From the NCBI RefSeq assembly GCF_900129685.1, contig NZ_FQWM01000001.1, forward strand, positions 620,001 through 684,000: a stretch of 64,000 nucleotides of DNA, read 5' to 3'. Numbering within the stretch: position 1 is the stretch's first letter; each line of letters begins with the position of its first letter. Below are positions 33,600-48,787 of the stretch, in pieces. A program made the position numbers and the translations under genes. Under the pieces are notes generated by a model, which was not told the origin of the DNA, made no database searches, and worked only from the letters and a program-made list of their open reading frames with translations. The stretch comes from Cognatishimia maritima. GTDB lineage: Bacteria > Pseudomonadota > Alphaproteobacteria > Rhodobacterales > Rhodobacteraceae.

Positions 33600-34094
33600 A
33601 TGACAACACTCCCCCTCGCCCAAACGCTGCATCGGCATTCACATGCGGAATACGCGGCCAGCGTCACGCTTAGCTATGACGACCGGTTCCTGCGTCGCAA
33701 ACGGCTGGTCGCGGATGACGGCACGGCCTTTGTCGTGGACCTGGAAAAGACCACGTCGCTGGATCAGGGCGACGCGCTGGAACTGTCGGATGGGCGACTG
33801 ATCAACGTGCGTGCCGCTGCTGAGGACGTACTGATCGTGACCGGCCCGAACCTGCCGCGCCTTGCGTGGCACATTGGCAATCGTCACACGCCCTGCCAGA
33901 TCGAGGCCGACCGTCTGCTGATCCAACGCGATCCGGTGATAAAACACATGCTGGAGCATCTGGACGCCATCGTCGTTGAGGGCAAAGAACCCTTCACGCC
34001 CGAAGGCGGGGCCTATGGCCATGGGCGGACCCATGCGCATGAACACGGCCATTCGGCACATGATCACAGTCACGACCATAGCCATGCCCATTGA
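33600..34094 (+). CDS. ureE: Urease accessory protein UreE (nickel metallochaperone)
   Basis: 164 aa. The UreE N-terminal domain is followed by the metal-binding domain (LAWHIGNRHTPCQIEADRLLIQ, HMLEHLDAIV). A His-rich C-terminal tail (HGRTHAHEHGHSAHDHSHDH) stores or delivers nickel. Starts 7 bp after ureC and overlaps ureF by 11 bp. Confidence 0.96.
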   Translation: MTTLPLAQTLHRHSHAEYAASVTLSYDDRFLRRKRLVADDGTAFVVDLEKTTSLDQGDALELSDGRLINVRAAAEDVLIVTGPNLPRLAWHIGNRHTPCQIEADRLLIQRDPVIKHMLEHLDAIVVEGKEPFTPEGGAYGHGRTHAHEHGHSAHDHSHDHSHAH

Positions 34095-34731
34095 CGCGAA
34101 GCTTCTGACGCTGACGCAATGGCTGTCACCGGCCTTTCCAGTCGGCGCCTTTGCCTATTCTCACGGGTTGGAACAGGCGGTGTGCGATGGCTGGATACAT
34201 GACGCGTATACGCTGAATGAATGGTTGGTCGACATTGCACGCCATGGCAGTGGCATGTCAGATGCGATTTGGATACGGCTCGCCTATGCCGCGCAATCTG
34301 ACGCAGAATTGGACGCGCTGAACGCGCAGTGCCGCGCCTATGCGCCCTGCGCCGAACGACTGCGCGAAGGTCAGCGACAAGGACAGGCCTTTGCACGCGT
34401 TGCGTCAGAGGTTTGGGGGCTTGCGCTGCCAAATCTGCAGCTTCCCGTCGCCTTGGGCAGCGCCGCGCGGCAAATGGGTCTTTCGCCAGACAGCACCATC
34501 ACGCTTTACCTGCAGTCCTTCCTCGGCAATCTGGTGTCTGCTGCGCAAAGGTTGATGCCCCTGGGTCAGACCGAAGCGCAGACCGTGCTGGCCCAGTTGA
34601 ATGCAGACTGTATCGCACTGGCGCAGGCCAGCGACGGCAAGGCGCTGGAGGACATTACATCAAGCGCCTTCCTTTCTGATATCGCCGCCATGCGGCACGA
34701 AACACTCCAACCGAGAATATTTCAGTCATGA
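34084..34731 (+). CDS. ureF: Urease accessory protein UreF
   Basis: 215 aa from ATG 34084 ([20 protein letters not shown]); the frame further upstream lies inside ure[27 protein letters not shown] and [21 protein letters not shown] are UreF signatures. It is all-alpha and works as a checkpoint of UreG GTPase in the UreDFG complex. It overlaps ureG by 4 bp. Confidence 0.95.
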
Positions 34732-35342
34732 CAAAAATGAACGGTCCCCTACGCGTGGGCATCGGCGGCCCGGTGGGCGCGGGTAAAACGACTTTGACAG
34801 CGCGCCTGTCTGAGGTGCTGAAAGAGCGGTTTTCTATCGGCGTCATCACCAATGACATTTACACACAGGAAGACGCCGAGGCTTTGATGCGAATGCAGAT
34901 CCTGCCGCAGGACCGGATCATTGGCGTGGAAACCGGCGGTTGCCCCCATACAGCGATCCGCGAGGATGCCTCGATCAACCTTGCCGCCGTGGCAGAGATG
35001 CAAGAACGCCATCCAGACCTTGATATCGTGCTGATCGAAAGCGGGGGCGATAACCTGTCTGCCACCTTCAGCCCAGAGTTGGCAGATCTGACGATCTATG
35101 TGATCGACGTCGCTGCAGGCGAAGAAATCCCGCGCAAAGGCGGCCCTGCCCTCACGCGATCAGACATTCTGGTGATCAACAAAACCGACCTTGCCCCCCA
35201 TGTCGGGGCCTCTTTAGAGGTCATGCGGCGTGACGCAACCAAAGCCCGCGACGGGCGGGTCTTTCATTTTACCAACCTCAAGCAAAAAGAAGGTGTAGAG
35301 GCGGTTCTGGGCAGCGTCTTGGACCTTTCGGGGCTGGAATAG
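34728..35342 (+). CDS. ureG: Urease accessory GTPase UreG
   Basis: 204 aa SIMIBI GTPase. The P-loop is [17 protein letters not shown], followed by [17 protein letters not shown] with the nickel-binding CPH motif, [17 protein letters not shown], and NKTD ([12 protein letters not shown]). It hydrolyses GTP to drive nickel insertion into urease. Last gene of the ure operon and convergent with the MFS gene. Confidence 0.98.
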
Positions 35343-35363: not shown

Positions 35364-36527
35364 TCAAAGACCGACGATACTCCGTGGGTCCTTCCGGATG
35401 CTGATCAGGATCACACCGGCTGCGAGGGCTGAAAACACGACTCCCGACAGGGGCAAATAGCCCAGGCCCACGCCGCCCGCCAGCAATTGTGCGCCCAAGG
35501 CTGCCCCGGCCGCAATCCCAAGATTGGCGGCTGTCGAAATCAGCGTTGATGCCAAATCTGGCGCAGCAGAAGCGCCTTCTAGCACTCGGTTCACAATGGA
35601 CGCTGCGGGCACAAACATGATCACCCCGAAGCCAAACAAAACGCCGCCCATTATGATGGGACCGGCCCCCGCAACAAACACCGCCAGAAAGGCCACGGCC
35701 TGCGCCGAGATGCCAATGATCAACGTTCTTTGCGGGATCTGATCCGCCAGTTTCCCGCCGATGAATGTGCCCAGCGTTGCCCCTGCTCCGAACAGAAACA
35801 GCATCACCGGTAAGGTGCGTTGGTCGACCTGCACCACCTCGGTCAGGAAAGGAGCAACAAAGGTAAAAAATGACCAGAACCCGATCAGCATGACGGCGAA
35901 TGTCAGATAGGCCATCAGCACCTGCTGATTGCCAATGGCTTTGACCTGTGACGCTATGCGGCTGCCCTCGGACGCGGTGGATTTATCCGCAGGCACCGTC
36001 CAGGCAATTGCGCCCATCACAAGCAAAGCTGCGCCGCCAATGATCCAGAATGTCGCCCGCCAGCCCAGCCAGTTGCCAATTGCGGTGCCCAGCGGGACGC
36101 CAAGGATGTTGGCGACACTGATCCCCGCAAAGAGCCACGCAATGGCCGCGCCGCGCTTGTTTTCTGGCACAAGGGACACGGCCACCACGCCAGCGACACC
36201 GAAGTAAGAGCCATGGCTTAAGGCCACCAAAAGCCGACCAGACAACAGCGACTCATAGGTGCCTGCCGTTGCGCACCAAAGGTGCCCAGCGACGAAAATC
36301 GCAAGCAAAAGCAATAGATTACGTTTGCGAGAGTATCGTGCAATCCCCAGAGTCAAGACTGGGCCACCAATTGCAACGCCCAGAGCGTAGGCGGTGATCA
36401 GATAGCCCGCCGCAGGAATTGTGACATCGAGATCGCGCGCGACTTCTGGCAGCAGGCCTGCAACGACAAACTCGGTTGTGCCGACGCAGAAGGCCCCAAG
36501 AAACAAGGCAATAACGGCAATTGGCAT
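35364..36527 (-). CDS. MFS transporter (DHA1, AraJ/YdhP-like)
   Basis: 387 aa with 12 hydrophobic segments. The N-terminus is IALFLGAFCVGTTEFVVAGL, typical of the AraJ/SotB/NepI branch of drug:H+ antiporters, which export sugars, nucleosides or drugs. Motif-A-like sequence between TM2 and TM3 is weak. It lies 84 bp downstream of the glycerate kinase on the same strand, so read-through from the mannosylglycerate operon is possible but not shown. Substrate unknown. Confidence 0.85.
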   Translation of the reverse strand: MPIAVIALFLGAFCVGTTEFVVAGLLPEVARDLDVTIPAAGYLITAYALGVAIGGPVLTLGIARYSRKRNLLLLLAIFVAGHLWCATAGTYESLLSGRLLVALSHGSYFGVAGVVAVSLVPENKRGAAIAWLFAGISVANILGVPLGTAIGNWLGWRATFWIIGGAALLVMGAIAWTVPADKSTASEGSRIASQVKAIGNQQVLMAYLTFAVMLIGFWSFFTFVAPFLTEVVQVDQRTLPVMLFLFGAGATLGTFIGGKLADQIPQRTLIIGISAQAVAFLAVFVAGAGPIIMGGVLFGFGVIMFVPAASIVNRVLEGASAAPDLASTLISTAANLGIAAGAALGAQLLAGGVGLGYLPLSGVVFSALAAGVILISIRKDPRSIVGL

Positions 36528-36611: not shown

Positions 36612-37889
36612 TCACGCTTTTGGTGGCAGGATCAGAAAGGCGCGGAAGTCGTTTACATTGGTCAATGTTGGCCCGGTCACAACCTGCGCAGCGGCCTTTT
36701 CAAAATAGGTATGCGCATCATTGTCGGCCAGCGCCGCCCGCGCGACGGCCAATCCGTTGGGCAAAGCAGCCAGCGTTTCAGGCCCGATACAGGCCCCAGC
36801 CACTTCTGCCGCGCCATCAACGCCGTCGGTGTCGCAGGCGATTGCATAAATTCCTTCAGCACCCTCAAGCGTCTGTAAGGCTGACAGTGCGAATTCCGCA
36901 TTTGGCCCGCCAACACCCTGCCCTCTGCGCGTCACGGTGCATTCGCCGCCAGACAGCAATAGAACCGGTGCATCGCCTGCCGTCATCTTTGCCCGAATAT
37001 CCAGCGCCGCCTGCGCCTGCGCCGCCCCTAGGTCTCTGGCTTCGCCCTCAAGGGCGTCGCCCAGCAGTTGCACCTCACTTTGGGCAGCGCGCGCGATCTC
37101 TGCTGCGGCCTGTAGCGATTGCGATGGCGCCGCAATGATGTGCACCTCTCCGTTGACGTACTGGCGTCGCTGCGGGGTCATGCCTGAACCGGCAGTTTTC
37201 AGATGTGTCATAACCGCGTCAGGCACGTCGACTGACCAGCGGTTCAGAATATCTAGCGCCTTTTGAGGCGTGCTTTGGCTGGCCACGGTTGGCCCAGAGG
37301 CGATCTCAGCGGGGTCATCGCCGGGCACGTCAGAAATGATCAGGCTGATCACGCGGGCAGGCGCACAGGCCGCCGCCAACCCGCCGCCTTTGACGCCGGA
37401 AAGCTGGGTACGCACCGCGTTCATTTCGCTGATCGGCGCGCCAGACGCCAACAACGCCGCGTTGACCGCTTGCTTATCTTCAAGGGTCAGCCCCGCCACT
37501 GGCGCACAAAGCAAAGAGGACCCACCGCCCGAGATCAGGGCAATCACAGTGTCCTGGGGTTCAAGGTCTTTCACACGTTCCAGCAGTTGCAGCGTCGCGT
37601 CGACCCCGGCTTGATCCGGCACCGGGTGCGCGGCTTCCACGATCTCGATCTGTTGACAGGGCCTGGCATAGCCATAGCGGGTGATTACGAACCCATCGCA
37701 GGGGCCATAGGCGGCCTCGACCGCCTCAGCCATGCGCGCACTCGCCTTGCCAGCACCAACAACAAGCAGCCGTCCCTCTGGCCGTTCAGGCAGGTGGTTC
37801 GCGACAACTTTCATAGGGTCAGCGGCGGCCACAGCGGTATCAAACAGCTGGCGAAGGAACCCGTTCGGGTCGGTGAACGTCGCTGACAT
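36612..37889 (-). CDS. Glycerate 2-kinase (MOFRL family)
   Basis: 425 aa from ATG 37889 (AGGAAA 12 bp upstream); a longer frame from a TTG at 37922 overlaps the isomerase gene. Family signatures are VVGAGKASARMAEA, ALISGGGSSLLCAP, IISDVPGDDPAEIASGPT and LLSGGECTVTRRGQGVGGPN. It converts D-glycerate and ATP to 2-phosphoglycerate for entry into lower glycolysis. It is the last enzyme gene of the operon with the GH63 hydrolase, where glycerate is a predicted product. In other settings this family serves glyoxylate, tartrate or serine-cycle metabolism. Confidence 0.9.
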   Translation of the reverse strand: MSATFTDPNGFLRQLFDTAVAAADPMKVVANHLPERPEGRLLVVGAGKASARMAEAVEAAYGPCDGFVITRYGYARPCQQIEIVEAAHPVPDQAGVDATLQLLERVKDLEPQDTVIALISGGGSSLLCAPVAGLTLEDKQAVNAALLASGAPISEMNAVRTQLSGVKGGGLAAACAPARVISLIISDVPGDDPAEIASGPTVASQSTPQKALDILNRWSVDVPDAVMTHLKTAGSGMTPQRRQYVNGEVHIIAAPSQSLQAAAEIARAAQSEVQLLGDALEGEARDLGAAQAQAALDIRAKMTAGDAPVLLLSGGECTVTRRGQGVGGPNAEFALSALQTLEGAEGIYAIACDTDGVDGAAEVAGACIGPETLAALPNGLAVARAALADNDAHTYFEKAAAQVVTGPTLTNVNDFRAFLILPPKA

Positions 37890-37903
37890 AGAGGGCGTGT
37901 TTC

Positions 37904-38596
37904 CTATCTTGGAGCAAGCCAATTGGCGTAATCGCTGACGAGAAGATGCCTTGGCGCTTCGTCTTCGTCAATATTGGCAAACCGCCCTATCGGATCACGG
38001 AACACATTGTCCGTTTCATCATCATTCACGGTCGAGACTTCGCCGATCAGCACATCACCACCTTCGCCCCAAAAGGCATGCCAATCGCCGGGTTGCAGCG
38101 TCACGCTTTCTCCGGGGGCGAAGGTCAGCTTTTCACCGGGCGCATAGTCTCGATGAATGCCGTCACACCAGACTGTGCCGCCTTTGTCTTCAGCGAAGTT
38201 GCCTTGATCGTCAGAGCCGTAAAGCTCCACCACCAAGGTTGCCCCACCGCGGTTGATAATGTCCTCTGCTTTGATCACATGGGTGTGCATGGGTGACAGC
38301 TGATCTTGTCGAGAAATCAGCAGCTTTTCGGCATAACACATGCCCCCACCCCGTTGCAGGTCCGCCAGGCGGCCATTGCGCAGGGTGAACAAAAACAGCC
38401 CCATCTGGTCAAAATCCCCGGCTCCGTAGTCAGTAATGTCCCAACCGCAGCGTGCATCGATCAGATGTTTGGCCTTGTCCGCATTGGCCGCAAAGTCTTT
38501 TGGGGACCAATAGGCAAAGGGCGGCAGGGTAAAGCCGTAGCTGCGGATCATGTCATCCGCCGCGCTCATAATGTCGTTGATGCGCGAACGCTTCAT
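37904..38596 (-). CDS. D-lyxose/D-mannose isomerase (cupin type)
   Basis: 230 aa from the ATGA overlap with the GH63 gene. Cupin fold: the metal-binding residues lie in QLSPMHTHVIKAEDI (HxH, then Glu) and a later His in LQPGDWHAFWGEG. Known D-lyxose isomerases of this fold interconvert D-lyxose and D-xylulose and also D-mannose and D-fructose. In this operon the mannose-to-fructose reaction fits, since the neighbouring hydrolase is expected to release mannose. Length agrees with the family (about 225-230 aa). Confidence 0.85.
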   Translation of the reverse strand: MKRSRINDIMSAADDMIRSYGFTLPPFAYWSPKDFAANADKAKHLIDARCGWDITDYGAGDFDQMGLFLFTLRNGRLADLQRGGGMCYAEKLLISRQDQLSPMHTHVIKAEDIINRGGATLVVELYGSDDQGNFAEDKGGTVWCDGIHRDYAPGEKLTFAPGESVTLQPGDWHAFWGEGGDVLIGEVSTVNDDETDNVFRDPIGRFANIDEDEAPRHLLVSDYANWLAPR

Positions 38597-39870
38597 GCGG
38601 GTTCTCCGGTCATCTTCAGGAACTCCATTACCATGGCCGCAGTCCATGTGAAATGCGGGCCACCACAGGGCGCGCCGTTCATGGGGTCAAAATATTCCGC
38701 AAAGCCACCAATGCGGATCAGTTCGACACTGTCGCTGACCACGCGCGCGGCCACCTGATCATACCCATCTCGTGCCAGACCGTCGGCGATCATGTAGTTC
38801 ACAATCAACCACGCCGGACCACGCCAATAGCGGCGACCGTCAAAGTCCTCTACATCGGGGTCATGGCTAGGGACGAGGTATTTCACGCGGTTCCCAAGCG
38901 TTTCAAGCCGCGCGGCGATGGCCGTGGCCCGTTCTTCTGGAATAGGTGCAAAGACTGGCAACAACCCACCAATGGACGGGCTATCAATCAGCGCCCCAAT
39001 CGCACGGTCATAACAGAGGTATTGCTTGTACTTGTCGCTCCAATGCGCCTCAAGCGCGGCAATCCCCTTGGCAACTCGCGCTCGTGACGTTTCGGCCAAA
39101 GCGGTTTCTCCAAGATCATCCGCCATATCCGCGAGATCCGCGCAGGACCTCAAAAGGATGGCGTTGAACCCCGGATCAACCACGCGGAAAGGCGATGCTT
39201 CGTGCAGCTTGCTGTTGTCCCATCCAAGGCTGCGGAAGCGTTCCACCAACCAGATATAGCGCTGATATTGCTCCTGCGTGGGGCGATGGGCGGGGTCTGT
39301 GTGCAGGGTATCGCGCCGGGTGAAGGCCCCCACCCCTTCGGTGGGAACGCGCGAAAAGGCGTCGTCCCAGTCAATCGAGTTATCGCGCCCGGATTCCCAA
39401 GGGTGGATGATTGCCACCAGCCCGGTTTGTTCCGGATCGCGATTGGCAAAGAACCAATCGTGCCAAGCAGCGATTTTGGGCAATAAGGCCGCCGCCCTGG
39501 TTCGCGCAGCTTCTTTGTCCTTTGCCCGGTTGAACAGCCGTCGAAGCGCAAAAGCTGCGACTGGCGGCTGTGTGATGCCCGACGTGGGGACAGGCCTGCC
39601 GGTCTGCCACACTTCGGGCCCGGGGAAATAGCCGTCATCTTCTTGATGGAAGATGATATGCGGCACCATCCCGTCCTCCCATTGATGAGAGAACAAAGTT
39701 TCGATTTCCGTCCAAGCACGGGGCTCGTTGATGTAGTTCAGACCAATCGCCGACAGCGCGCTGTCCCAATTCCATTGGAAGGGATAAAGCCCATGGGTTG
39801 GGACGGTGTAAGTCCCCTTGTCGTTCCGGGCCAGAATGTCGACAGCTTGATCAAATAGGTCACTGTTCAT
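38593..39870 (-). CDS. GH63-type glycoside hydrolase, probable mannosylglycerate hydrolase
   Basis: 425 aa, an (alpha/alpha)6-barrel enzyme of clan GH-G. Visible are YPFQWNWDSALSAIG (residues 29-43), MVPHIIFHQE, the general-acid region HPWESGRDNSIDWDD (acid probably D163) and the C-terminal GGFAEYFDPMNGAPCGGPHF (base probably E392). Length and lack of extra domains match bacterial mannosylglycerate/glucosylglycerate hydrolases rather than the larger processing glucosidases. No signal peptide, so it acts on imported substrate. Adjacent mannose isomerase and glycerate kinase genes favour mannosylglycerate over glucosylglycerate. The reaction is inferred. Confidence 0.8.
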   Translation of the reverse strand: MNSDLFDQAVDILARNDKGTYTVPTHGLYPFQWNWDSALSAIGLNYINEPRAWTEIETLFSHQWEDGMVPHIIFHQEDDGYFPGPEVWQTGRPVPTSGITQPPVAAFALRRLFNRAKDKEAARTRAAALLPKIAAWHDWFFANRDPEQTGLVAIIHPWESGRDNSIDWDDAFSRVPTEGVGAFTRRDTLHTDPAHRPTQEQYQRYIWLVERFRSLGWDNSKLHEASPFRVVDPGFNAILLRSCADLADMADDLGETALAETSRARVAKGIAALEAHWSDKYKQYLCYDRAIGALIDSPSIGGLLPVFAPIPEERATAIAARLETLGNRVKYLVPSHDPDVEDFDGRRYWRGPAWLIVNYMIADGLARDGYDQVAARVVSDSVELIRIGGFAEYFDPMNGAPCGGPHFTWTAAMVMEFLKMTGEPA

Positions 39871-39886
39871 CGGAGTTCACGATTTC

Positions 39887-40930
39887 TTAGGCCACAGCCT
39901 GTTGAGTGGATTTATCAAACCAGCGGATACGGTCTGCATGCGGAGCGAGATTGATGATCTCCCCGGTCTTCAGCTCAAGATCGCTTTCCAACACGGCGCG
40001 GAACATGGTGCCATCGACATCGCAGGTCACAAGAAGATGCGCGCCCAAAGGCTCGATCAGCCGGACTTTGGCGGGCAAGCCGCTTTCAGCAGGGGCGATG
40101 TCTTCGGGTCGGATGGCAAATTCAACTGACCCATCCGCCGCATGAGGGCCGTCATAGGTTTGCCCCGCCACAGTCCATTTCCCGGCGTCCGCACGGTTGG
40201 CCGGCAGGAAGTTCATGGGCGGGTTGCCGATGAAACCGGCCACGAAGCGTTCTGCCGGATTGCGGTAGACCTCAACCGGGGTCGCAGCTTGCACAATCCG
40301 TCCTTGGTGCATCACGGAAATCCGATCCGCAAGGCTCATGGCTTCGACCTGATCGTGGGTCACGTAAATGGCGGTAGTGTTGCTTTCCGCCAAAACGCCC
40401 TTCAGTTCGGCGCGCATTTCCAAACGTAACAACGCATCAAGGTTGGACAGCGGTTCATCCATCAGGATCACATCAGGTTCCATGGCCAAGGCACGGGCCA
40501 CGGCCACACGTTGGCGCTGACCACCGGAGAGTTCACCAGAGTAGCGCCCTAGAAGCTGCTCGATATGCATCAACTCGGCGGTGCGCTCGACCCGGCGTTT
40601 GACTTCGTCATTGGGCTGTTTCTGCATACGCAGGCCAAAGCCGATGTTTTCGAACACCGTCAGGTGCGGGAAAACCGCGTAGTTCTGGAACACCATCGCA
40701 ATGCCCCGGTCCTTGGGTGCGAGGTGATCCACACGACGCCCGCCGATCCAGACCTCGCCTTCGGTGGCGGTTTCTAGCCCGCAGATGATCCGCAGCAGCG
40801 TGGATTTTCCGCAGCCAGAGGCCCCCAGAAGCACCATGAACTCTTGGTCTGCAATGGTGAGGTTGATGTCACTCAGAGCTTGATATTCCCCAAAGCGTTT
40901 GGCGACGTTTTTGATTTGAATTTCAGCCAT
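39887..40930 (-). CDS. Sugar ABC transporter ATPase (UgpC/MalK type)
   Basis: 347 aa from ATG 40930, where AAGGAG gives the start (a longer frame to 40957 overlaps the permease spacer). Walker A is GASGCGKSTLLRII, the signature is LSGGQRQRVAVARAL, and Walker B is VILMDEPLSNLDALLR. The MalK C-terminal regulatory fold includes EFAIRPEDIAPAESG. It drives the importer encoded upstream in the same operon. Confidence 0.94.
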   Translation of the reverse strand: MAEIQIKNVAKRFGEYQALSDINLTIADQEFMVLLGASGCGKSTLLRIICGLETATEGEVWIGGRRVDHLAPKDRGIAMVFQNYAVFPHLTVFENIGFGLRMQKQPNDEVKRRVERTAELMHIEQLLGRYSGELSGGQRQRVAVARALAMEPDVILMDEPLSNLDALLRLEMRAELKGVLAESNTTAIYVTHDQVEAMSLADRISVMHQGRIVQAATPVEVYRNPAERFVAGFIGNPPMNFLPANRADAGKWTVAGQTYDGPHAADGSVEFAIRPEDIAPAESGLPAKVRLIEPLGAHLLVTCDVDGTMFRAVLESDLELKTGEIINLAPHADRIRWFDKSTQQAVA

Positions 40931-40957
40931 TTGTCGGCTCCTTTTCCATTTTGCCAA

Positions 40958-41803
40958 TCAGCGATTGGCAATGCCCCACATCGCAAACAGATATTTGCGG
41001 ACGGCAAAGATGAAGATCAGCGCTGGCACCACGAGGATGAACCCACCGGCGAATTTCAAATGCAGCGGAGATTCTGACAGGGTTTGCAGCAAGAATGCAG
41101 TCAGCGTCCGGTTCTCGATCGTCAGAACCGCTGCGGCGAAGACCTCGTTCCACGAGATCACGAAGGCGAAAATCGCAGAGGCAGTGATGCCCGGAAGGAT
41201 CAGTGGTAAGACCACTTTCTGAAACGCGGTGACCCGGTTACAGCCCAAGGTCCATGCGGCCTCTTCCAGTTCAATCGGGATGCCCGAAAAAAGCGAGAAA
41301 GTGATCAAGACCGAGAACGGGATCGCCAGTGTTGTGTGCACCAGCGCCAGGCCAAAGGCCGTGTCATCCAATCCCGTGCGGATGAAAAGCACCGCCAACG
41401 GAAGCGCCAGCAATGGCAGCGGAAAGGCGCGGGTCAACAGGATCAGCAGCCGGAACAGTTCTTTACCCCTAAAGTCAAACCGCGACAACGCGTAGCCCGC
41501 TGGTGCACCGATCAGGATCGACAGGACCATGGTGATCGCCGCCACAATGATCGAGTTTTTCAGCGCGACCAACATGCCGGAAAAGCCTGTGAAGAACTCC
41601 AGCGAGCCAAGGTCGAATTCTGGAATGAATGACTTTGGAAAGCTGTTCACGGTTTCCGGCGACGACAGGGTGTTCACCAGCAGCAGATAAAGCGGGATCA
41701 GCACCCAGGCGCAGAGCAACACCACCCCTGAGATATAGACATAACGCCCTGCCTTGCCCGGTGCTCTGGGAAGGGCGATTTCGGATACGGTCGCGTCACT
41801 CAT
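40958..41803 (-). CDS. Sugar ABC transporter permease (MalG type)
   Basis: 281 aa with six predicted membrane segments and the EAA loop in EEAAWTLGCNRVTAFQKVVL (coupling helix that contacts the ATPase). It overlaps the upstream permease by 4 bp. It belongs to the CUT1 family that imports di- and oligosaccharides and glycosylated compatible solutes. Confidence 0.93.
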   Translation of the reverse strand: MSDATVSEIALPRAPGKAGRYVYISGVVLLCAWVLIPLYLLLVNTLSSPETVNSFPKSFIPEFDLGSLEFFTGFSGMLVALKNSIIVAAITMVLSILIGAPAGYALSRFDFRGKELFRLLILLTRAFPLPLLALPLAVLFIRTGLDDTAFGLALVHTTLAIPFSVLITFSLFSGIPIELEEAAWTLGCNRVTAFQKVVLPLILPGITASAIFAFVISWNEVFAAAVLTIENRTLTAFLLQTLSESPLHLKFAGGFILVVPALIFIFAVRKYLFAMWGIANR

Positions 41804-42645
41804 ATCGTGGCTCCTTTCGGGACGCGCAGCGCGCGCAGGATGATCAGGGTGAAGAAGATCGAGATCGCCAGAACGATCAGCGCAAGCGCCGCCGCTGTGC
41901 CACTATTTTGCAGCAAGAACTGGTTCTCATAGATTTGCTCCATCAAGACCGGGAAGGTCGATCCGCCAAGGGCCGCAACCACTGCAAAGACTTCAAAGGC
42001 AAGGACGACGCGCAGGATCAGGGCCGTTTGCAGCGAGGGGCGCAGCAAGGGCAGCGTGACCTTGACAAAGCGTTTCCACGGCGATGCGCCAAAGACTTCG
42101 GCGGCCTCGTAGTATTCCTTGGGAATAAGGCCAATGCCTGCCACGATAATCACCAACATGATCGCCGTAGCGCGCCAGATTTCTGCAAGCATGATCGCAA
42201 TGAAGACGACCGTGAGGTTCTGATAGGACAAGAATGAGGTCGGCTGATCGACTACCCCAAGCCCATGCAGCATGGAATTCAGGAAGCCCGACTGCTCAAA
42301 GATGGCAAGCCAGATGATGCCTGCGGCAAGGTCTGAGATGCCCAGCGGAATGGTCCAGACATAAAGCACCAAATCACGTCCGCGTTTCATTTTGTTGACC
42401 ATTGTCGCCATCAAAAGCGAAAGCGCCAACTGGATCGGAACGACCGCAAGGGCAAGCAGGAAGGTGTTGCGCATCGAAATCGGGAACTTCCAGTAGCCCA
42501 CGACCTCGCGGAAGTTGTCCATGGTGAAGCCGTTACCTGTGGTAAAGGCCTGCTGCGCAACGAGGAAAAATGGGTACAGGAAGAAGACACACAGGAACGC
42601 TGTCACCGGTGCAATCAACACATAGGGTAGTAACCGAGCATTCAT
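41800..42645 (-). CDS. Sugar ABC transporter permease (MalF type)
   Basis: 281 aa from ATG 42645 with GAGGAG upstream. Six membrane segments beginning LLPYVLIAPVTAFLCVFFLY. The EAA loop is YEAAEVFGASPWKRFVKVTL. Forms the translocation pore with the MalG-type partner. Confidence 0.93.
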   Translation of the reverse strand: MNARLLPYVLIAPVTAFLCVFFLYPFFLVAQQAFTTGNGFTMDNFREVVGYWKFPISMRNTFLLALAVVPIQLALSLLMATMVNKMKRGRDLVLYVWTIPLGISDLAAGIIWLAIFEQSGFLNSMLHGLGVVDQPTSFLSYQNLTVVFIAIMLAEIWRATAIMLVIIVAGIGLIPKEYYEAAEVFGASPWKRFVKVTLPLLRPSLQTALILRVVLAFEVFAVVAALGGSTFPVLMEQIYENQFLLQNSGTAAALALIVLAISIFFTLIILRALRVPKGATI

Positions 42646-42711
42646 CAGAAAGCTCCTCGGATAAGATTTGCGAAGTTTAGATAATACACACCGTATCAGC
42701 GGTGGGGATGG

Positions 42712-42735
42712 GTCCGGGCCAAACTTGGCCCGGAC
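42712..42735 (-). terminator. Hairpin between binding-protein and permease genes
   Basis: GTCCGGGCCAA (42712-42722) and TTGGCCCGGAC (42725-42735) are perfect complements, a stem of 10 pairs with a 4-nt loop, in the 110-bp gap after the binding-protein gene. No U-run. Likely slows 3' decay or tunes transporter stoichiometry. Confidence 0.75.
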
Positions 42736-42755
42736 AGGAGGCAAAACCTTATCGA

Positions 42756-44024
42756 TTACTCGACTGGGCAGGCACCTTCAGATGGAGCATCAGGAGCCCA
42801 GCATGGCGCACCGGTTTCGTCCATGATTTTCTGCAAAGTTTTCTTTTGATCTGCAAGAACACGGTCGATCGGCTGACCGGCCAGAACGATACGCTCGAAG
42901 GTGTCGACGAACACACGGTTGAAGTCACCCCCCATCGAACCAAGACCTGCTGGCAGAAGACCTGGGTTCGCATCAGACGATCCGCTCATCTTGGCAACTG
43001 CATCGCCTGCCGCACGCACTGCCGGTGGCAGGTCATCAGGCAGATCAACATCGACCACAGGGAAGAAGCTGGTCGCACGCAGCGTTGCAATCTGAGTTTC
43101 AGGCTGCAGCAGATACTTCACCAATTCCTTGGCTTCATCCATATTTGGTGCTGTCTTCGGGATCGCGACACCTGCAAGCACAGGCATGAAGCCACGACCA
43201 GTAGGCCCTGCTGGCGCTGGGAAGGCTACAAAGTCATCAGGACGCTCGTTAAAGGCCTGTGCCAAACGTGAGGTGTGATCAAACACAATCCATGCATCGC
43301 CGGACAACAGTTGCTCTTGCAGGAAGTTGTAGTTTGTCGATGCTGGGTTGGTGTGTTCCCACAGTTCTTTGAATTTTTCCCACGCAGTGACGGCTTCGTC
43401 TGACGCGAAGGTACGCACAACGCCGTTTGTATAGGACGGGTACAGATAGCCTTGGAAGAACCGGTGCTTCAGCCCTTTTGGACCGGCAGGGAAGCCAAAC
43501 TTCGGCTGACCGACGGCTTCGTGCACATTCGCGGACCACTGGATCAACTCATCGTAAGTCAATGCATCAATATCAGCGCCTTCCGGCAGATACTGCAGCG
43601 CTTCTTTGTTGGCTGCCATGATGTAGCTTGCCTGCATCCAAGGCACATATTGCATGTTGTCGGTGCCAAGTTTTGCAAGATTGTTGAAGGTCGCGCTTGA
43701 AGACGAAACCCCGAGATCGTCAAGATCAACTAGGTCATCTGCATTCAGAGATGAAAACACCCCATGCAGCGACCCCAAAACCCCAATCGAACCAGAATTT
43801 GCTTCGATTTCTGCCTTCAGGCGGGTCAACCATGGCCCCTCTTCGTTTGGCTGATAGTCCACACCGGGACCAAAGCCAGCGAGAACATCCGTGCGCATGG
43901 CCTGCGCTTCTTCTGCCGGACGCGCTTGCGTTGACCAGAAGAGTGTTTCCGCGCTTACCGCTGCGGCTGATAGTAAGATTGACAGGCCCGATACGGCACC
44001 TGCCAGCTTGGCTGAAAGTTTCAT
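42756..44024 (-). CDS. Sugar ABC transporter substrate-binding protein (family 1)
   Basis: 422 aa. The signal peptide (AKLAGAVSGLSILLSAAAVSA) is followed by a type-II periplasmic-binding fold: DDLVDLDDLG, YVPWMQASYIMAANKEAL, GDAWIVFDHTSRLAQAF and FMPVLAGVAIPKTAPNMDEA. It is the first gene of the seven-gene operon and diverges from the LacI gene. I infer that it binds mannosylglycerate or a related glycoside; ligand residues cannot be read from sequence alone. Confidence 0.9.
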   Translation of the reverse strand: MKLSAKLAGAVSGLSILLSAAAVSAETLFWSTQARPAEEAQAMRTDVLAGFGPGVDYQPNEEGPWLTRLKAEIEANSGSIGVLGSLHGVFSSLNADDLVDLDDLGVSSSSATFNNLAKLGTDNMQYVPWMQASYIMAANKEALQYLPEGADIDALTYDELIQWSANVHEAVGQPKFGFPAGPKGLKHRFFQGYLYPSYTNGVVRTFASDEAVTAWEKFKELWEHTNPASTNYNFLQEQLLSGDAWIVFDHTSRLAQAFNERPDDFVAFPAPAGPTGRGFMPVLAGVAIPKTAPNMDEAKELVKYLLQPETQIATLRATSFFPVVDVDLPDDLPPAVRAAGDAVAKMSGSSDANPGLLPAGLGSMGGDFNRVFVDTFERIVLAGQPIDRVLADQKKTLQKIMDETGAPCWAPDAPSEGACPVE

Positions 44025-44162: not shown

Positions 44163-44178
44163 GGTATAACGTTATACC
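44163..44178. promoter_or_regulatory. Perfect palindromic operator O1
   Basis: GGTATAACGTTATACC, 16 bp and fully symmetric around CG, about 140 bp before the binding-protein gene. A TTGACA-like -35 (minus strand, 44187-44182) abuts it, so a bound repressor should block the operon promoter. Confidence 0.8.
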
Positions 44179-44254
44179 TTCTGTCAACGATTTTTCCTGA
44201 CGCATGTTTTCGGTATAGGCGTGAACTGCCCTATCCCCTTGTTATTTGGGGTGT

Positions 44255-44285
44255 TGCAACGTTATGTTTGCAATAACGTTTAACC
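44255..44285. promoter_or_regulatory. Two further AACGTT operator-like sites, O2 and O3
   Basis: TGCAACGTTATG (core 44258-44263) and AATAACGTTTAA (core 44275-44280) share the AACGTT core of O1 and end 14 bp before the LacI ATG. They fit autoregulation of the repressor gene and looping to O1, about 90 bp away. Confidence 0.55.
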
Positions 44286-44298
44286 AAAAATCAGGCTC

Positions 44299-45315
44299 AT
44301 GGCACAAAGACCCAAGCTAGAAACTGTTGCCAAACGCGCGGGCGTCTCTGTCGCGACCGCGAGTCAGGTCATGCGCGGCACCGGTCGCATTTCGGACAAA
44401 ACCCGCAAAAAAGTTCTGGATGCCGCACAGACCCTGCACTACGTGCCTGATGCCCGCGCGGCGGCGATGCGGTCGGGCGACAACCGGGAAATTGGGTTTA
44501 CCATCCACCAGATCGCCAACCCATTTAACGCCGAGGTGATCAGCGGGGTGAGCGATCTGTTGGAGTCTGAGGGCTACCTTGTCTCTATTCTGGACTCCCA
44601 GGATGACCCCGAACGTCAGCGCCGTCAGCTTGAGGCATTTATTCGCGGGTCGCGCGGCGGGCTCTTGTGGGTGCCGGCCCATGACACGCCGAAATCAACT
44701 TTTGAGTTGCTCAGAAATCATCGAATCCCCACGGTGACGTTCCTGCGTCGAGAGGGCTTTGATGAATTTGACCACGTCGGAATACGCAACAGCGAGGCCA
44801 CACGCACCGCAACGACGCACTTGGCTGTACTTGGTCACCGCAACATCGCCTTCCTCGGCGGCCTTGCCAATGTCGAAACCCGCAATCAGCGGATCGCGGG
44901 CTACTTGTCAGTGATGCAAGAGCGCGACCTCGCCGATCCAATTGTTTGGGAATCCCCAGACGACAAAATGTCCGGCATGAAGGCGATGATGGCCCTGCAA
45001 AAAGCACATCCCGAAGTCACAGGAGTGGTTTGCAACGGCGACATGATCGCCCTTGGGGCGTGCCTTGCTTTGACGCGAATGGGCAAACAACCGGGCAAAG
45101 ATGTTTCGGTCGTGGGCTTTGACAATATCCAAGACGCGGCGGTCGCCACCCCGCCCCTTACGACCATGGCGGTCTCGCCCCGTCAACTCGGTCGTCGCCT
45201 CGCTCGCACGCTGCTGGACCGCATCCGAGAACCTGAAGGGCCACCTGCCGTGTCAGAGGTGTCTGCGGAACTGACTGTCAGGGATACAACGGGCGCTTTG
45301 ACACGCCCGTCGTAA
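44299..45315 (+). CDS. LacI-family repressor of the mannosylglycerate operon (proposed)
   Basis: 338 aa. The helix-turn-helix LETVAKRAGVSVATASQVMR (residues 7-26) and hinge YVPDARAAAMRSGDNR precede an effector domain with IGFTIHQIANPFNAEVISGV, NIAFLGGLANVETRNQRIAGY and VSVVGFDNIQDAAVATPPLT. It diverges from the GH63/ABC operon with palindromes between. Its stop lies 15 bp from the end of the guanidine operon, so the two converge. Confidence 0.9.
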   Translation: MAQRPKLETVAKRAGVSVATASQVMRGTGRISDKTRKKVLDAAQTLHYVPDARAAAMRSGDNREIGFTIHQIANPFNAEVISGVSDLLESEGYLVSILDSQDDPERQRRQLEAFIRGSRGGLLWVPAHDTPKSTFELLRNHRIPTVTFLRREGFDEFDHVGIRNSEATRTATTHLAVLGHRNIAFLGGLANVETRNQRIAGYLSVMQERDLADPIVWESPDDKMSGMKAMMALQKAHPEVTGVVCNGDMIALGACLALTRMGKQPGKDVSVVGFDNIQDAAVATPPLTTMAVSPRQLGRRLARTLLDRIREPEGPPAVSEVSAELTVRDTTGALTRPS

Positions 45316-45330: not shown

Positions 45331-45483
45331 TTATCGACGCAGTGCGAAAATCGCGCCGGCTGCAGCAACCAAAGCCAAAATCAAAGTATTTTCAATGCCA
45401 TGGCTGTGAAATCCATTGTCAACGTGTGCGAGCGCTGGCGATGCAACGATCATCGCTACGAGTGAGAAAAGGCGCGTTTTCAT
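45331..45483 (-). CDS. Small His-containing membrane protein ending the guanidine operon
   Basis: 50 aa: a signal-like start (MKTRLFSLVAMIVASPALA), a His motif (HVDNGFHSHGIEN, residues 20-32), one hydrophobic segment (TLILALVAAAGAIFAL) and an RR end. Its ATG overlaps the stop of the His-rich gene (ATGA), so it belongs to this operon. It shares ASPALAH, HxHGxEN and layout with the 58-residue protein between ureA and ureB. Function unknown; a role in nickel handling at the membrane is the simplest inference. Confidence 0.8.
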   Translation of the reverse strand: MKTRLFSLVAMIVASPALAHVDNGFHSHGIENTLILALVAAAGAIFALRR

Positions 45484-45959
45484 GCCTCTATTTCCTTTTT
45501 TCTTTGATGCAAAAAGTCGCGAATATCCATGGTCGATTTCTCATCCATCGAGACATAGATCAGCGACATGTTGGTGCGTTCCTGAACCATTTCACCGGGA
45601 AACGGCAGATAGCTAAGCTCACGTGACCCAAAAGAGGGCGACGCGGTCCCGACCTGCCAGTCGGTTTTTAGCTCGACATCGATCAGCTTCAGCGATTTTG
45701 CGCCGTCCTTGGCCGGGCGTTCAAACGGGACACCGGCCAGTTTCAGGTAGCTGGATTTGTCCTTGGCTTGCAAAAAACCCTCGATGAATTGCGTGGCAAG
45801 CACCTGCAGGTCAGCCGCTTCATCTGCATTATGCATGTGGCTGTGCAGGTGGTCGCCGTGCGCGTGATTGTGGCCATGCCCCGCGTGGGAATGAGGGTGG
45901 GCATGATCGTGATCATGGTGGTGGTGGTGGTGGTCGTGATGGGGATGGTCGTGTGGCAT
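45480..45959 (-). CDS. His-rich N-terminal protein, candidate nickel chaperone for the guanidine hydrolase
   Basis: 159 aa. The first 43 residues contain 23 histidines (HHDHHHHHHDHDHAHPHSH and on), a typical metal-binding tail. The remaining about 110 residues form a compact, unrecognised domain (LQVLATQFIEGFLQAKDKSS ... SFGSRELSYLPFPGEMVQER). Its ATG abuts the stop of the ureohydrolase gene. In Synechocystis, the guanidine hydrolase needs HypA/HypB-like helpers; none is encoded here, so this protein may do that job. The assignment rests on composition and position only. Confidence 0.75.
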   Translation of the reverse strand: MPHDHPHHDHHHHHHDHDHAHPHSHAGHGHNHAHGDHLHSHMHNADEAADLQVLATQFIEGFLQAKDKSSYLKLAGVPFERPAKDGAKSLKLIDVELKTDWQVGTASPSFGSRELSYLPFPGEMVQERTNMSLIYVSMDEKSTMDIRDFLHQRKKEIEA

Positions 45960-47233
45960 CAGACACCCACCTTATGCGGACCGTCGTTGCGCCAGCGGCG
46001 ACCGTTGAATTCACCATGCGGTAAGCTGACCGGTTTATCGATGAACTTCTTATGCGCCCCAAGCTTGCCGTTGGACACCAGTGCCCCCAGCACGTCCACA
46101 ATCACACGCGTACCCATCAGCGCGGTAATATCAGACGTGTCGTAAGGAGGAGACACCTCTACCAGTTCGAGACCGCAAATACCTTCGGCCGCGATGCCCG
46201 ATGCCAGCGCCAGCGCCTCGCGTGGGAGGAACCCACCCGGTTCTGGCCAGCCTGTCCCGGGCACAAAGCCACAGTCGATGCTGTCGATGTCAAAGGACAT
46301 ATAGACCATGTCGACGTCCTTCCATGCCATCTCAAGCGCCATTTCGATGGTTTTATCGACACCCATTTTTTCCATGTCGCCCATGGTGATGATGTTGGTG
46401 TTGCGCTCTCTCGCTACTTTGACGGCCTCACGCGGGACCTGCCAGCCGCCGATGCCGATCTGCACGAGGTTTGTGGCAGGCACATTCGGTAGGTTGGTCG
46501 AATGGAACCAAGGCGTTGTGTGCATCCGTTCATCCAAGTCTTTCTCTTGGATGTCGGCATGGCGGTCAAAGTGCACGATGCCGATTTTCTTGGAGGTACA
46601 TTCCGCGATCCCGCGCACGCATGGGAAGCCAATCGAGTGGTCCCCACCAATCATGATCGGCAAGGAACCAGAGCTAAATACATGGCTGACGGCGCGGCTG
46701 ATCTGGTCAAAGGATTTTTCGATATTGGCCGGGATCGTGAACACATCGCCCGCATCGCAGAGCGTCATTTGCTCGCGAAGATCGACCCCAATTTCGTAGT
46801 TATAGGGCGTATAAAGCGCCGAGATTTTGCGGACCCCTTGCGGGCCAAATCGCGTTCCCGGACGATAAGTTGTCCCACCATCAAATGGGATACCAAGGAC
46901 CGTGGCATCATAGTCTGCGACCTCCAGAACGTCTTCGGCATAGGGTGCCTTTAGGAATGTGTTGATCCCAGCAAAATGCGGCAGTTCCCCGCGCGCAAAG
47001 GTCGGGATGGATTTGTCTTCAATGCTGTCCGCACCGGTCAACCCCATGCGCAGCGCCCACTGACGCTCTTCTTCCATGCGGCCTTCGGGCAGGTCCTTTT
47101 CCAAATGCATGGCCTTCCAGCCTGCCAGTTTGGTCAGATCCGGGTGGTGATGGCGTTTATCGCGCGCCTCGATGGTGCCCTGCAAATCAACAGGGTGGTG
47201 GGTTCGGGAACGGTCCCGATCATGCAGAAACAT
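45959..47233 (-). CDS. gdmH: Ureohydrolase-family enzyme, probable nickel-dependent guanidine hydrolase
   Basis: 424 aa, longer than arginase or agmatinase (about 300-350 aa), with a roughly 90-residue N-terminal extension as in cyanobacterial GdmH. Metal motifs are GGDHS (196-200), DRHAD (223-227) and SFDIDSID (313-320), followed by PGTGWPEPGG. It should hydrolyse guanidine to urea and ammonia in the cytoplasm. Support is the guanidine-I riboswitch ahead of the operon, the cotranscribed importer, a His-rich partner and the nearby urease. GGAGGA precedes the start, which overlaps the ATPase gene by 14 bp. Agmatinase is the alternative, but nothing else here concerns polyamines. Confidence 0.85.
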   Translation of the reverse strand: MFLHDRDRSRTHHPVDLQGTIEARDKRHHHPDLTKLAGWKAMHLEKDLPEGRMEEERQWALRMGLTGADSIEDKSIPTFARGELPHFAGINTFLKAPYAEDVLEVADYDATVLGIPFDGGTTYRPGTRFGPQGVRKISALYTPYNYEIGVDLREQMTLCDAGDVFTIPANIEKSFDQISRAVSHVFSSGSLPIMIGGDHSIGFPCVRGIAECTSKKIGIVHFDRHADIQEKDLDERMHTTPWFHSTNLPNVPATNLVQIGIGGWQVPREAVKVARERNTNIITMGDMEKMGVDKTIEMALEMAWKDVDMVYMSFDIDSIDCGFVPGTGWPEPGGFLPREALALASGIAAEGICGLELVEVSPPYDTSDITALMGTRVIVDVLGALVSNGKLGAHKKFIDKPVSLPHGEFNGRRWRNDGPHKVGV

Positions 47234-47978
47234 CTGCGTCCTCCTTCAATTGAAACGGGATGCCCCCATCGCGGGCATCGAAATCATATGTGATGGTCGC
47301 GCCATACATGCCTGGGTCATGTGGGTCCCAGCGCGGCTTATCAAAGACCAGAACACGGTCCCCGAGTTTGAACCCCTCCTGCAGGTCGTGCGTGACCATG
47401 AAGACCGTCATGTTGGTCTCGTCACGCAGTTCCAAAAGAAAATCGTGCATCTGTAGACGTGTGCCGGGATCAAGAGCCCCAAAGGGTTCGTCCAGTAGCA
47501 GAATGCGCGGCTTGGCGGTCATCGCTTGGCCAATCGCGAGGCGCTGCTGCATGCCGCCCGACAGTGATGCCGGATATTGATCGGCCACGTGGTTCAGGCC
47601 GATACGTTCCAGCATTGCATCGGCGCGCTCTGCCGCAGTTTTGCGTTTTTCGCCGGACAACCGGCCAAAGGCCGTGTCAAAGCTTTCCGCTGCAATCAGG
47701 TTCTCTCGTACCGACAGATGCGGAAAGACAGAGTATTTCTGAAACACCACCCCGCGTTCGCGATTGGGCTCCTTGGCAGTTACCCCGCCGTCGATGCTGA
47801 TCTCACCTTTGTGTGGACGTTCCTGCGCCAAAAGCATGCGTAGAAAGGTGGATTTGCCACAGCCCGAGGCCCCGACGATGGAAATAAATTCGCCCTCGTC
47901 AATCTCGACATTCACCCGTTCAAGGATCGACCGGTTGCCGTATTTCTGCCAGACATTTGAAACACTTACAAAGCTCAT
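47220..47978 (-). CDS. Guanidine-operon ABC transporter ATPase (NitT/TauT type)
   Basis: 252 aa from ATG 47978 in an ATGA overlap with the permease gene, with GGAGG upstream. Walker A is GASGCGKSTFLRML, the signature is LSGGMQQRLAIGQAM, and Walker B is ILLLDEPFGALDPG. By homology alone it would be called nitrate/taurine transport; the riboswitch and hydrolase point to guanidine. Confidence 0.88.
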   Translation of the reverse strand: MSFVSVSNVWQKYGNRSILERVNVEIDEGEFISIVGASGCGKSTFLRMLLAQERPHKGEISIDGGVTAKEPNRERGVVFQKYSVFPHLSVRENLIAAESFDTAFGRLSGEKRKTAAERADAMLERIGLNHVADQYPASLSGGMQQRLAIGQAMTAKPRILLLDEPFGALDPGTRLQMHDFLLELRDETNMTVFMVTHDLQEGFKLGDRVLVFDKPRWDPHDPGMYGATITYDFDARDGGIPFQLKEDADVSA

Positions 47979-48787
47979 AGGCCTGCCTCCATCCAAGGGA
48001 AGGCTTTGCGCGACAGGGTCTTGAGGAGCCAGTCGATCAGAAAAGCCAGAAAGGTGATCCAGATGACGTAGGTCAGGATGACATCCATGGCGAGATAGCG
48101 GCGCACAAGGAAGATGCGGTAGCCTAGCCCGACGTTAGACGCTACGGCTTCGGCGGCAATCAGGAAAAGCCAGGCAGAGCCGAGCGACAGGCGCACATTT
48201 GAAATCAGGCGCGGCAGCACTTGCGGCAGCGCGACGCGCAGGGCGATGACGGCTGAGGATGCGCCAAGCGTCTGGGCTTTGACAATCTGCTCTTGCGGAA
48301 TTTCAAGCACGCGCTGCGCGAGGTCACGGGTCATAAAGGGCGTGATCCCGATGACGATCAGAACCACTTTTGATGTCTCTCCAAGCCCAAAGACAATGAA
48401 CAGGATCGGCAGCAAAGCCAAGGGCGGCACCATGGACACAACAGCAATAAAACTCGACATGGCAGATCGCGCATAGGGTAAGAGGCCAATGGCGAGACCG
48501 ATCAGCAAAGAAAGCAGCGCTGATATCCCAACACCCCCCAAAAGCCGTGCGAGGCTGGCGAAAGTGTCGTTCCAAAGCAGAATTTCTTTGGACCGGCGGT
48601 CGGGTTCGGTAAACAGCCGCTGTGCGGTTTCAGCGATGGTTGAAGGGGCAGGCAGAAGTTTGTCTTGCGGGTTCGCGTCCAGTCGGATGTCAGAGCCAAT
48701 CGAATAGGCCGCAAAGAGCGCGATAAAAGGGAGCGCCGCCAAAAGGACCGCCAAGGGCTTGCCCGGAATATGGTTGATCAAACGCAT
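47975..48787 (-). CDS. Guanidine-operon ABC transporter permease (NitT/TauT type)
   Basis: 270 aa from ATG 48787, set by AAGGAGG; longer in-frame starts are not supported. About six membrane segments and the coupling loop QEQIVKAQTLGASSAVIALR. Members of this family lie behind ykkC riboswitches in many bacteria. Confidence 0.88.
   Translation of the reverse strand: MRLINHIPGKPLAVLLAALPFIALFAAYSIGSDIRLDANPQDKLLPAPSTIAETAQRLFTEPDRRSKEILLWNDTFASLARLLGGVGISALLSLLIGLAIGLLPYARSAMSSFIAVVSMVPPLALLPILFIVFGLGETSKVVLIVIGITPFMTRDLAQRVLEIPQEQIVKAQTLGASSAVIALRVALPQVLPRLISNVRLSLGSAWLFLIAAEAVASNVGLGYRIFLVRRYLAMDVILTYVIWITFLAFLIDWLLKTLSRKAFPWMEAGL

Follow-up and report, generated by a model that had tools for sequence, protein, structure and literature searches.

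What compound is consumed by an operon that joins a sugar importer to a glycoside hydrolase, a sugar isomerase and a glycerate kinase? The question is raised by a 64,000-nucleotide stretch of the Cognatishimia maritima genome (Rhodobacteraceae; contig NZ_FQWM01000001.1, positions 620,001 to 684,000; hereafter the window), where seven tightly spaced minus-strand genes occupy positions 36612-44024. An earlier note, made from the sequence alone, described these genes as a complete operon for mannosylglycerate utilisation. Through comparison with related loci, we propose that the operon is probably an inducible scavenging system for alpha-mannosylglycerate (MG), and that glucosylglycerate (GG) may be a second substrate. 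Open reading frames (ORFs) and Pfam and NCBIfam matches bear out the seven genes in the order the note gave, and Pfam matches agree with the identities it assigned: a CUT1 importer, a GH63 hydrolase, a cupin isomerase and a glycerate 2-kinase. That inventory overlooked a divergent LacI-family gene and a putative operator. The features are as follows.

42756-44024, minus strand: CUT1 substrate-binding protein (PF01547, SBP_bac_1, 74 bits; AlphaFold model of MalE-type fold, pLDDT 86.7)
41800-42645, minus strand: ABC permease A (PF00528, BPD_transp_1, 70.1 bits; start reset)
40958-41803, minus strand: ABC permease B (PF00528, BPD_transp_1, 55.3 bits; start reset)
39887-40930, minus strand: MalK/UgpC-type ATPase with TOBE domain (PF00005, ABC_tran, 122.5 bits; PF08402, 37.1 bits)
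38593-39870, minus strand: MGH1-like GH63 hydrolase, predicted mannosylglycerate hydrolase (PF22422, 374.7 bits; TTHA0978, 381.8 bits)
37904-38596, minus strand: predicted cupin D-lyxose/D-mannose isomerase (PF07385, 334.9 bits; 3kmh, 187.8 bits)
36612-37889, minus strand: predicted MOFRL-type glycerate 2-kinase (PF13660, 284.9 bits; PF05161, 104.1 bits)
44299-45315, plus strand: LacI-family repressor gene, divergent from the operon (PF00356, 55.7 bits; PF13377, 114.8 bits)
44164-44177, unstranded: putative palindromic operator GTATAACGTTATAC, conserved in related regions of the same layout

Gene content and distribution

The genes overlap by four bases at two junctions (permease A with permease B, and hydrolase with isomerase), the kinase starts 14 bases past the isomerase stop, and the widest intergenic gap, between the binding protein and permease A, is 110 bases. 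The isomerase and kinase ORFs as first called were over-long (247 aa for the isomerase), and their starts were reset. A scan of GTDB species genomes returned at least 590 stretches, at least 586 of them encoding a relative of the hydrolase; 80 loci were kept, an enlarged comparison comprised 106 loci with their hydrolases, and neighbouring genes were counted by tblastn. The binding protein, both permeases, the ATPase and the hydrolase co-occur in 75 of the 80 related loci, a recurrence that argues against a chance grouping; the five loci without the full set (L002, L039, L065, L074 and L081) include short contigs.

Many bacteria of marine and soil origin have relatives, among them Rhodobacterales and Hyphomicrobiales, including many Mesorhizobium, as do metagenome-assembled genomes labelled Granulosicoccus, Thiotrichaceae, Geminicoccaceae and Gammaproteobacteria. 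Six of nine genomes of the window's own genus, its own included, carry a match, with identities of 75-100% in two of them and 40-46% in the other four. Likewise, PF22422 is matched in 20 of 61 genomes sampled from the family, with 14 matches at full length and above 300 bits by hand count. Three layouts were distinguished. Type I is arranged as in the window, with a divergent LacI gene; in type II, found in Mesorhizobium and others, the LacI gene is co-oriented; and in type III the ATPase gene follows the hydrolase gene, the hydrolase shares about 45% identity with that of the window, and the transporter is less related. One locus departs further: in Roseomonas gilardii (L104, 9254-11840), two amidohydrolase genes and a Rieske protein gene follow the hydrolase and replace the isomerase.

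The hydrolase and its active site

The hydrolase belongs to PF22422 (MGH1-like_GH), for which the gathering cut-off is 27 bits. Its closest solved structure is Thermus thermophilus TTHA0978, aligned over residues 6-415 and listed under PDB 2z07 and 4wva, and chains of the mycobacterial glucosylglycerate hydrolase MhGgH rank next at 236-244 bits. The second of the two entries, 4wva, is given for Tt8MgH, a mannosylglycerate hydrolase (MgH) of known structure, in PMC6608630. Database records often label such hydrolases just trehalase-like or hypothetical.

Eighteen residues are named as catalytic or substrate-contacting in MhGgH in the same paper, and the window hydrolase retains 17 of them. The exception is Q434, which corresponds to F407 in the window; the text of the paper gives Gln434, whereas chain 6g3n, the one used for the residue comparison, has F at 434 and another MhGgH chain has Q. 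TTHA0978 likewise aligns with F at this position, and F407 is present in all 106 related hydrolases as well as in the window's. Catalytic D182 and E419 and substrate residue D43 of MhGgH correspond to D163, E392 and D36, which are unchanged in the 106 relatives. Across these relatives and the window's enzyme, 16 of the 18 positions are invariant, the variable ones being position 82 (Y in four) and position 101 (D in one).

According to PMC6608630, MG and GG are cleaved about equally well by MgH from Thermus and from Selaginella. Because both compounds are cut by characterised relatives, the active site alone cannot name the substrate. The hydrolase reaches 365.3 bits on the NCBIfam equivalog for glucosylglycerate hydrolase (NF047898), below its cut-off of 550.

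Fate of the sugar

The gene that follows the hydrolase encodes a member of PF07385 (Lyx_isomer; gathering cut-off 20.8). It scores 235.8 bits on the NCBIfam D-lyxose/D-mannose isomerase equivalog NF051472, below the cut-off of 350, and the sole solved relative found is 3kmh, called a D-lyxose isomerase. Genes downstream of the hydrolase were counted in the 76 of 80 loci with at least 800 bp after it (L016, L033, L072 and L081 were dropped, although L081 has the isomerase). Of these 76, a cupin isomerase comes after the hydrolase in 27: 23 of 47 type I, one of 22 type II, two of five truncated and one of two other loci; in one of the type I loci (L017), a PIG-L deacetylase gene sits between hydrolase and isomerase. 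A second set of 18 loci gave two of three type I, none of 12 type III, none of two type II and none of one other, and in the type III locus L086 the isomerase adjoins the LacI gene.

Two further loci encode an enzyme of another kind. At L060 an AGE-family gene takes the isomerase's position immediately behind the hydrolase; in Limimaricola variabilis (L102) such a gene is found past a second LacI gene and a glycerate kinase, at the cluster's far end. Both proteins match PF07221, and for both the best NCBIfam match is D-mannose isomerase (233 and 371 bits, respectively, against a cut-off of 600). For the L060 protein, the nearest structures are 3gt5 and 5x32, entered in the database under the names N-acetyl- or N-acylglucosamine 2-epimerase. 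Cupin and AGE enzymes are unrelated folds.

The association is also seen at the level of whole genomes. PF07385 is found in 12 of the 14 family genomes with a full-length hydrolase versus 15 of the 47 others (p 5e-4), or in 11 of 13 when the window's genome is left out (p 0.001); these p values ignore relatedness, and one genome with fragmentary hydrolase matches only (G028) is counted among the 47. Ten of the isomerase copies lie at a distance from the hydrolase and are 55-84% identical to that of the window. Overall, the recurrence of the isomerase and the D-mannose isomerase-like AGE proteins at two loci favour mannose as the sugar. The earlier note had assigned mannose a dedicated next enzyme, and the cupin isomerase is a good candidate for it.

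Fate of glycerate and fructose

The last gene encodes both PF13660 (DUF4147) and PF05161 (MOFRL), the domain pair of MOFRL glycerate 2-kinases, and is the sole PF13660 gene in the window's genome; on the NCBIfam glycerate 2-kinase equivalogs NF041176 and NF040791 it reaches 200.1 and 177.5 bits, under cut-offs of 550 and 670. The order hydrolase, isomerase, MOFRL kinase recurs in seven of 47 type I loci, with the kinase preceded by a small gene in L020 and by a gap in L014, and is found again in L082, L097 and an annotated locus of Loktanella salsilacus. Kinase genes also occur in clusters that have no adjacent cupin isomerase (L074, L095, Limimaricola and Deinococcus peraridilitoris), and in Deinococcus the kinase gene adjoins the hydrolase gene. 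Plasmid loci were chosen from the annotated match list (8 of 60 rows, 177 records) and are illustrative rather than a count. This recurrence beside related hydrolases agrees with the note's dedicated next enzyme for glycerate.

Fructose, the predicted product of the isomerase, would need a kinase encoded elsewhere, and "complete" therefore overstated the operon. No ROK kinase, the one glucokinase family searched for, was found in the window's genome. PfkB proteins are matched seven times, six of them annotated (L115 was left out), and for one of these, L109, fructokinase is the best match. With PfkB candidates available and no ROK kinase, a route from mannose through fructose to fructose 6-phosphate, alongside glycerate to 2-phosphoglycerate, is possible; L109 as the fructose kinase is a guess.

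Uptake

The first four genes have the composition of a CUT1 importer, namely a binding protein, two permeases and an ATPase bearing a TOBE domain (PF08402 is TOBE_2), and the ATPase scores 408.4 bits on the UgpC model, under its cut-off of 432. We attempted to name the ligand of the binding protein by sequence, profile and fold searches, and none returned a specific answer. At E 1e-3, a single-sequence search of solved structures returned nine matches, all of them weak and to sugar-binding proteins, the best to CbpB (E 2.5e-5), and a profile gave no structure match at E 1e-5. The AlphaFold model, built from a 30-row alignment, adopts a MalE-type fold, and its top structural match reaches Z 32.2 (362 residues, 3.9 A). 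Proteins that bind maltose, glucans or glycerophosphodiesters match the model at similar scores, with 10-17% identity and no MG-binding structure among the matches listed. Given such low identity to proteins of a general sugar-binding fold, the ligand cannot be read from known structures.

Regulation

The divergent LacI gene occupies the same place in type I relatives, and palindromes common to the regions between it and the binding-protein gene gave the motif RTATAACGWTATAY. Across 55 type I regions, including the window's, the best site has no mismatch in 26, one in 22, two in six and four in one; 54 of the 55 thus have a site within two mismatches, versus 12 of 1100 shuffled regions. The motif was derived from these same regions, so the figures measure its conservation and are not an independent test. 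At two mismatches or fewer, the LacI-to-binding-protein regions of type II (0 of 29) and type III (0 of 11) contain no site; the scan covered these regions and not the sequence upstream of LacI, where the operator may lie in loci with co-oriented genes.

The window's operator, GTATAACGTTATAC, is the one exact site in its genome; on the minus strand, a TTGACA hexamer (44182-44187) precedes it at a distance of four bases. Sites with at most one mismatch number two forward and one reverse, against four and three for a reversed control, and thus provide no sign of a wider LacI regulon; a one-mismatch operator-like site is at G000:C12:7017. With a single exact operator in the genome, LacI control looks local. 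Scans for sigma-70 promoters and terminators did no better than shuffles. Near the LacI start, 44257-44281 contains two imperfect half-site-like stretches, AAACGTTATT and CATAACGTTG, perhaps auxiliary operators.

Proposed pathway and alternative substrates

We propose that MG would be taken up through the binding protein and ABC (ATP-binding cassette) importer and cleaved by the GH63 hydrolase to D-mannose and D-glycerate, by an inverting mechanism as proposed for MhGgH. The cupin isomerase would convert mannose to fructose, a PfkB kinase encoded outside the operon would phosphorylate it, and the MOFRL kinase would convert glycerate to 2-phosphoglycerate. The divergent LacI protein would repress the operon from its one local operator until an inducer arrives. 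MG, the substrate named in the earlier note, is favoured by the genes neighbouring the hydrolase (isomerase, AGE proteins and MOFRL kinases); it is not settled, since characterised relatives cut both MG and GG. What was observed is the genes and their order, the active-site residues, the conserved operator and the repeated presence of the isomerase and of glycerate kinases beside this hydrolase; the substrate, the direction of flux, repression and its inducer, and the fructose kinase are inferred. The natural source of MG may be digeneaside, the form in which it is known as a solute of red algae, as the note proposed for a seaweed-associated roseobacter.

Several observations weigh against this proposal. 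Characterised homologues of the hydrolase accept GG too (PMC6608630). No isomerase follows the hydrolase in 49 of 76 relatives, the two genes are adjacent in only two of the 12 family genomes holding both, and in one genome (G057) the exact operator is present at the operon only, with none at the distant isomerase gene. The AGE genes of L060 and L102 were first spotted by eye and afterwards used as queries, and a search of the 106 loci found no further AGE gene beside a hydrolase (the only other match, in L062, is on the opposite strand, 6.6 kb upstream, and was left out of the count). The L102 protein has YihS-type isomerases as its nearest relatives, a sulfoquinovose isomerase among them, and its substrate is therefore less certain. 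In addition, the hydrolase, isomerase and kinase all fall below their NCBIfam equivalog cut-offs, and L109 reaches 144.9 bits on the fructokinase model against a cut-off of 450.

Alternatively, the natural substrate could be GG, with glucose entering metabolism through a glucokinase and the isomerase either a hitchhiker or acting on another sugar. GG is common in marine cyanobacteria. It is preferred by MhGgH, and the Thermus and Selaginella enzymes treat both compounds similarly (PMC6608630). The 49 loci without a downstream isomerase are in line with a glucose product, as is the Deinococcus cluster, where a ROK kinase gene (glucokinase family, 73.1 bits; cut-off 260.35) follows the glycerate kinase gene and an isomerase gene is absent. 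However, an isomerase of mannose or lyxose would have no obvious part in using glucose, yet one comes after the hydrolase in 27 of 76 loci; the window's genome yielded no ROK kinase in the search described above; and F407 is shared with TTHA0978, unlike MhGgH, although this residue need not decide between MG and GG. On balance, we consider GG an unlikely primary substrate.

It is also improbable, in our view, that the operon is directed at a modified or larger form of MG, such as an acylated ester, an amide or an oligosaccharide, from which an initial trimming would yield MG as an intermediate. Some related operons would suit such a route: a PIG-L deacetylase gene comes directly after the hydrolase in L069, L077, L091, L096, L107 and L017, and a GDSL/SGNH hydrolase gene lies between two hydrolase paralogues in Devosia and Chelativorans (L036, 7260-11263; L058, 7887-11266). 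The window's operon, however, has neither gene, and L017 is the only one of 47 type I loci with PIG-L after the hydrolase. Finally, D-lyxose or another sugar acted on by the isomerase, released by the hydrolase from a different hydroxy-acid glycoside, is very improbable: PF07385 and 3kmh are both named for D-lyxose isomerase, but the NCBIfam family is named for D-lyxose and D-mannose, D-mannose isomerase is the best match for the AGE proteins of two loci, and the residues with which MhGgH contacts the hexose and the glycerate are retained.

Beyond the window, we tentatively suggest, at close to even chances, that the MG operon represents a widespread, undescribed pathway of alphaproteobacteria and some gammaproteobacteria that consumes MG from algae or other organisms. 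Two unrelated D-mannose isomerase folds would have come to stand next to one kind of hydrolase independently of each other, and the deacetylase and esterase variants would serve modified MG.

Flanking genes

A major facilitator superfamily (MFS) efflux gene (35364-36527; best model Cmx/CmrA, 284.9 bits, cut-off 400) lies on the same strand, 84 bases downstream of the kinase. It was considered as an eighth operon member and rejected, with no tblastn match in the 80 loci. Urease accessory genes ureE/F/G, recognised by eye, lie beyond it at 33600-35342. On the LacI side, 45480-47996 encodes an arginase-family enzyme (PF00491, 255.6 bits, under the agmatinase cut-offs) followed by a His-rich protein that matches no family; the pair may be a guanidine hydrolase and a nickel chaperone. 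In L019 and L025, an arginase-family copy of 86% identity is located close to the operon.

Significance and relation to known systems

If the proposal is correct, many genomes are already equipped to use an osmolyte that carries a negative charge and has been studied chiefly for its stabilising effect on proteins, and a genetic marker becomes available for the turnover of digeneaside (MG, a red-algal solute) by seaweed-associated and planktonic bacteria. It would also assign testable functions to a hydrolase recorded as trehalase-like or hypothetical, to a MalE-type binding protein that has no close solved relatives, and to a LacI regulator whose operator is defined. Likewise, the bacterial D-lyxose isomerase family would gain a physiological role, as the mannose isomerase of osmolyte catabolism.

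The individual enzymes are known; their combination in one operon appears new. In agreement with the earlier note, no description of an operon of this makeup was found in open-licence PMC papers, judged by title or abstract start among the matches listed; the closest systems that turned up there were the GGaP phosphorylase and E. coli MngA, both described below.

Among known systems, Thermus TTHA0978, a GH63 mannosylglycerate hydrolase, resembles the window's enzyme in its 381.8-bit match and the shared F at position 407. The window's enzyme lies in an import operon; the comparison with TTHA0978 covered the protein and not its gene neighbourhood. The E. coli MngA/MngB system is alike in using MG, and MngB is a GH38 mannosidase. 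It relies on a phosphotransferase system (PTS), in contrast to the ABC importer, GH63 hydrolysis and LacI regulator here, and a search confined to the seven operon genes found neither a PTS transporter nor a GH38 mannosidase. E. coli uses MG as an external sole carbon source taken up by the PTS (PMC8490865). MhGgH, which shares 17 of the 18 listed residues and has Q434 in place of F407, has a preference for GG, and its presumed role is the mobilisation of an internal store (PMC6608630). A glucosylglycerate phosphorylase, GGaP (GH13_18), is predicted in the roseobacter Rhodoalgimonas from a red alga (PMC10608839); here too an osmolyte made of sugar and glycerate is degraded by related bacteria, but by phosphorolysis of GG and with another enzyme family. 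A counterpart by layout is the plasmid locus of Loktanella salsilacus (NZ_CP072993.1), which by record annotation alone has the same gene order, a divergent LacI gene, the isomerase and the glycerate kinase, and whose hydrolase is called a trehalase family glycosidase.

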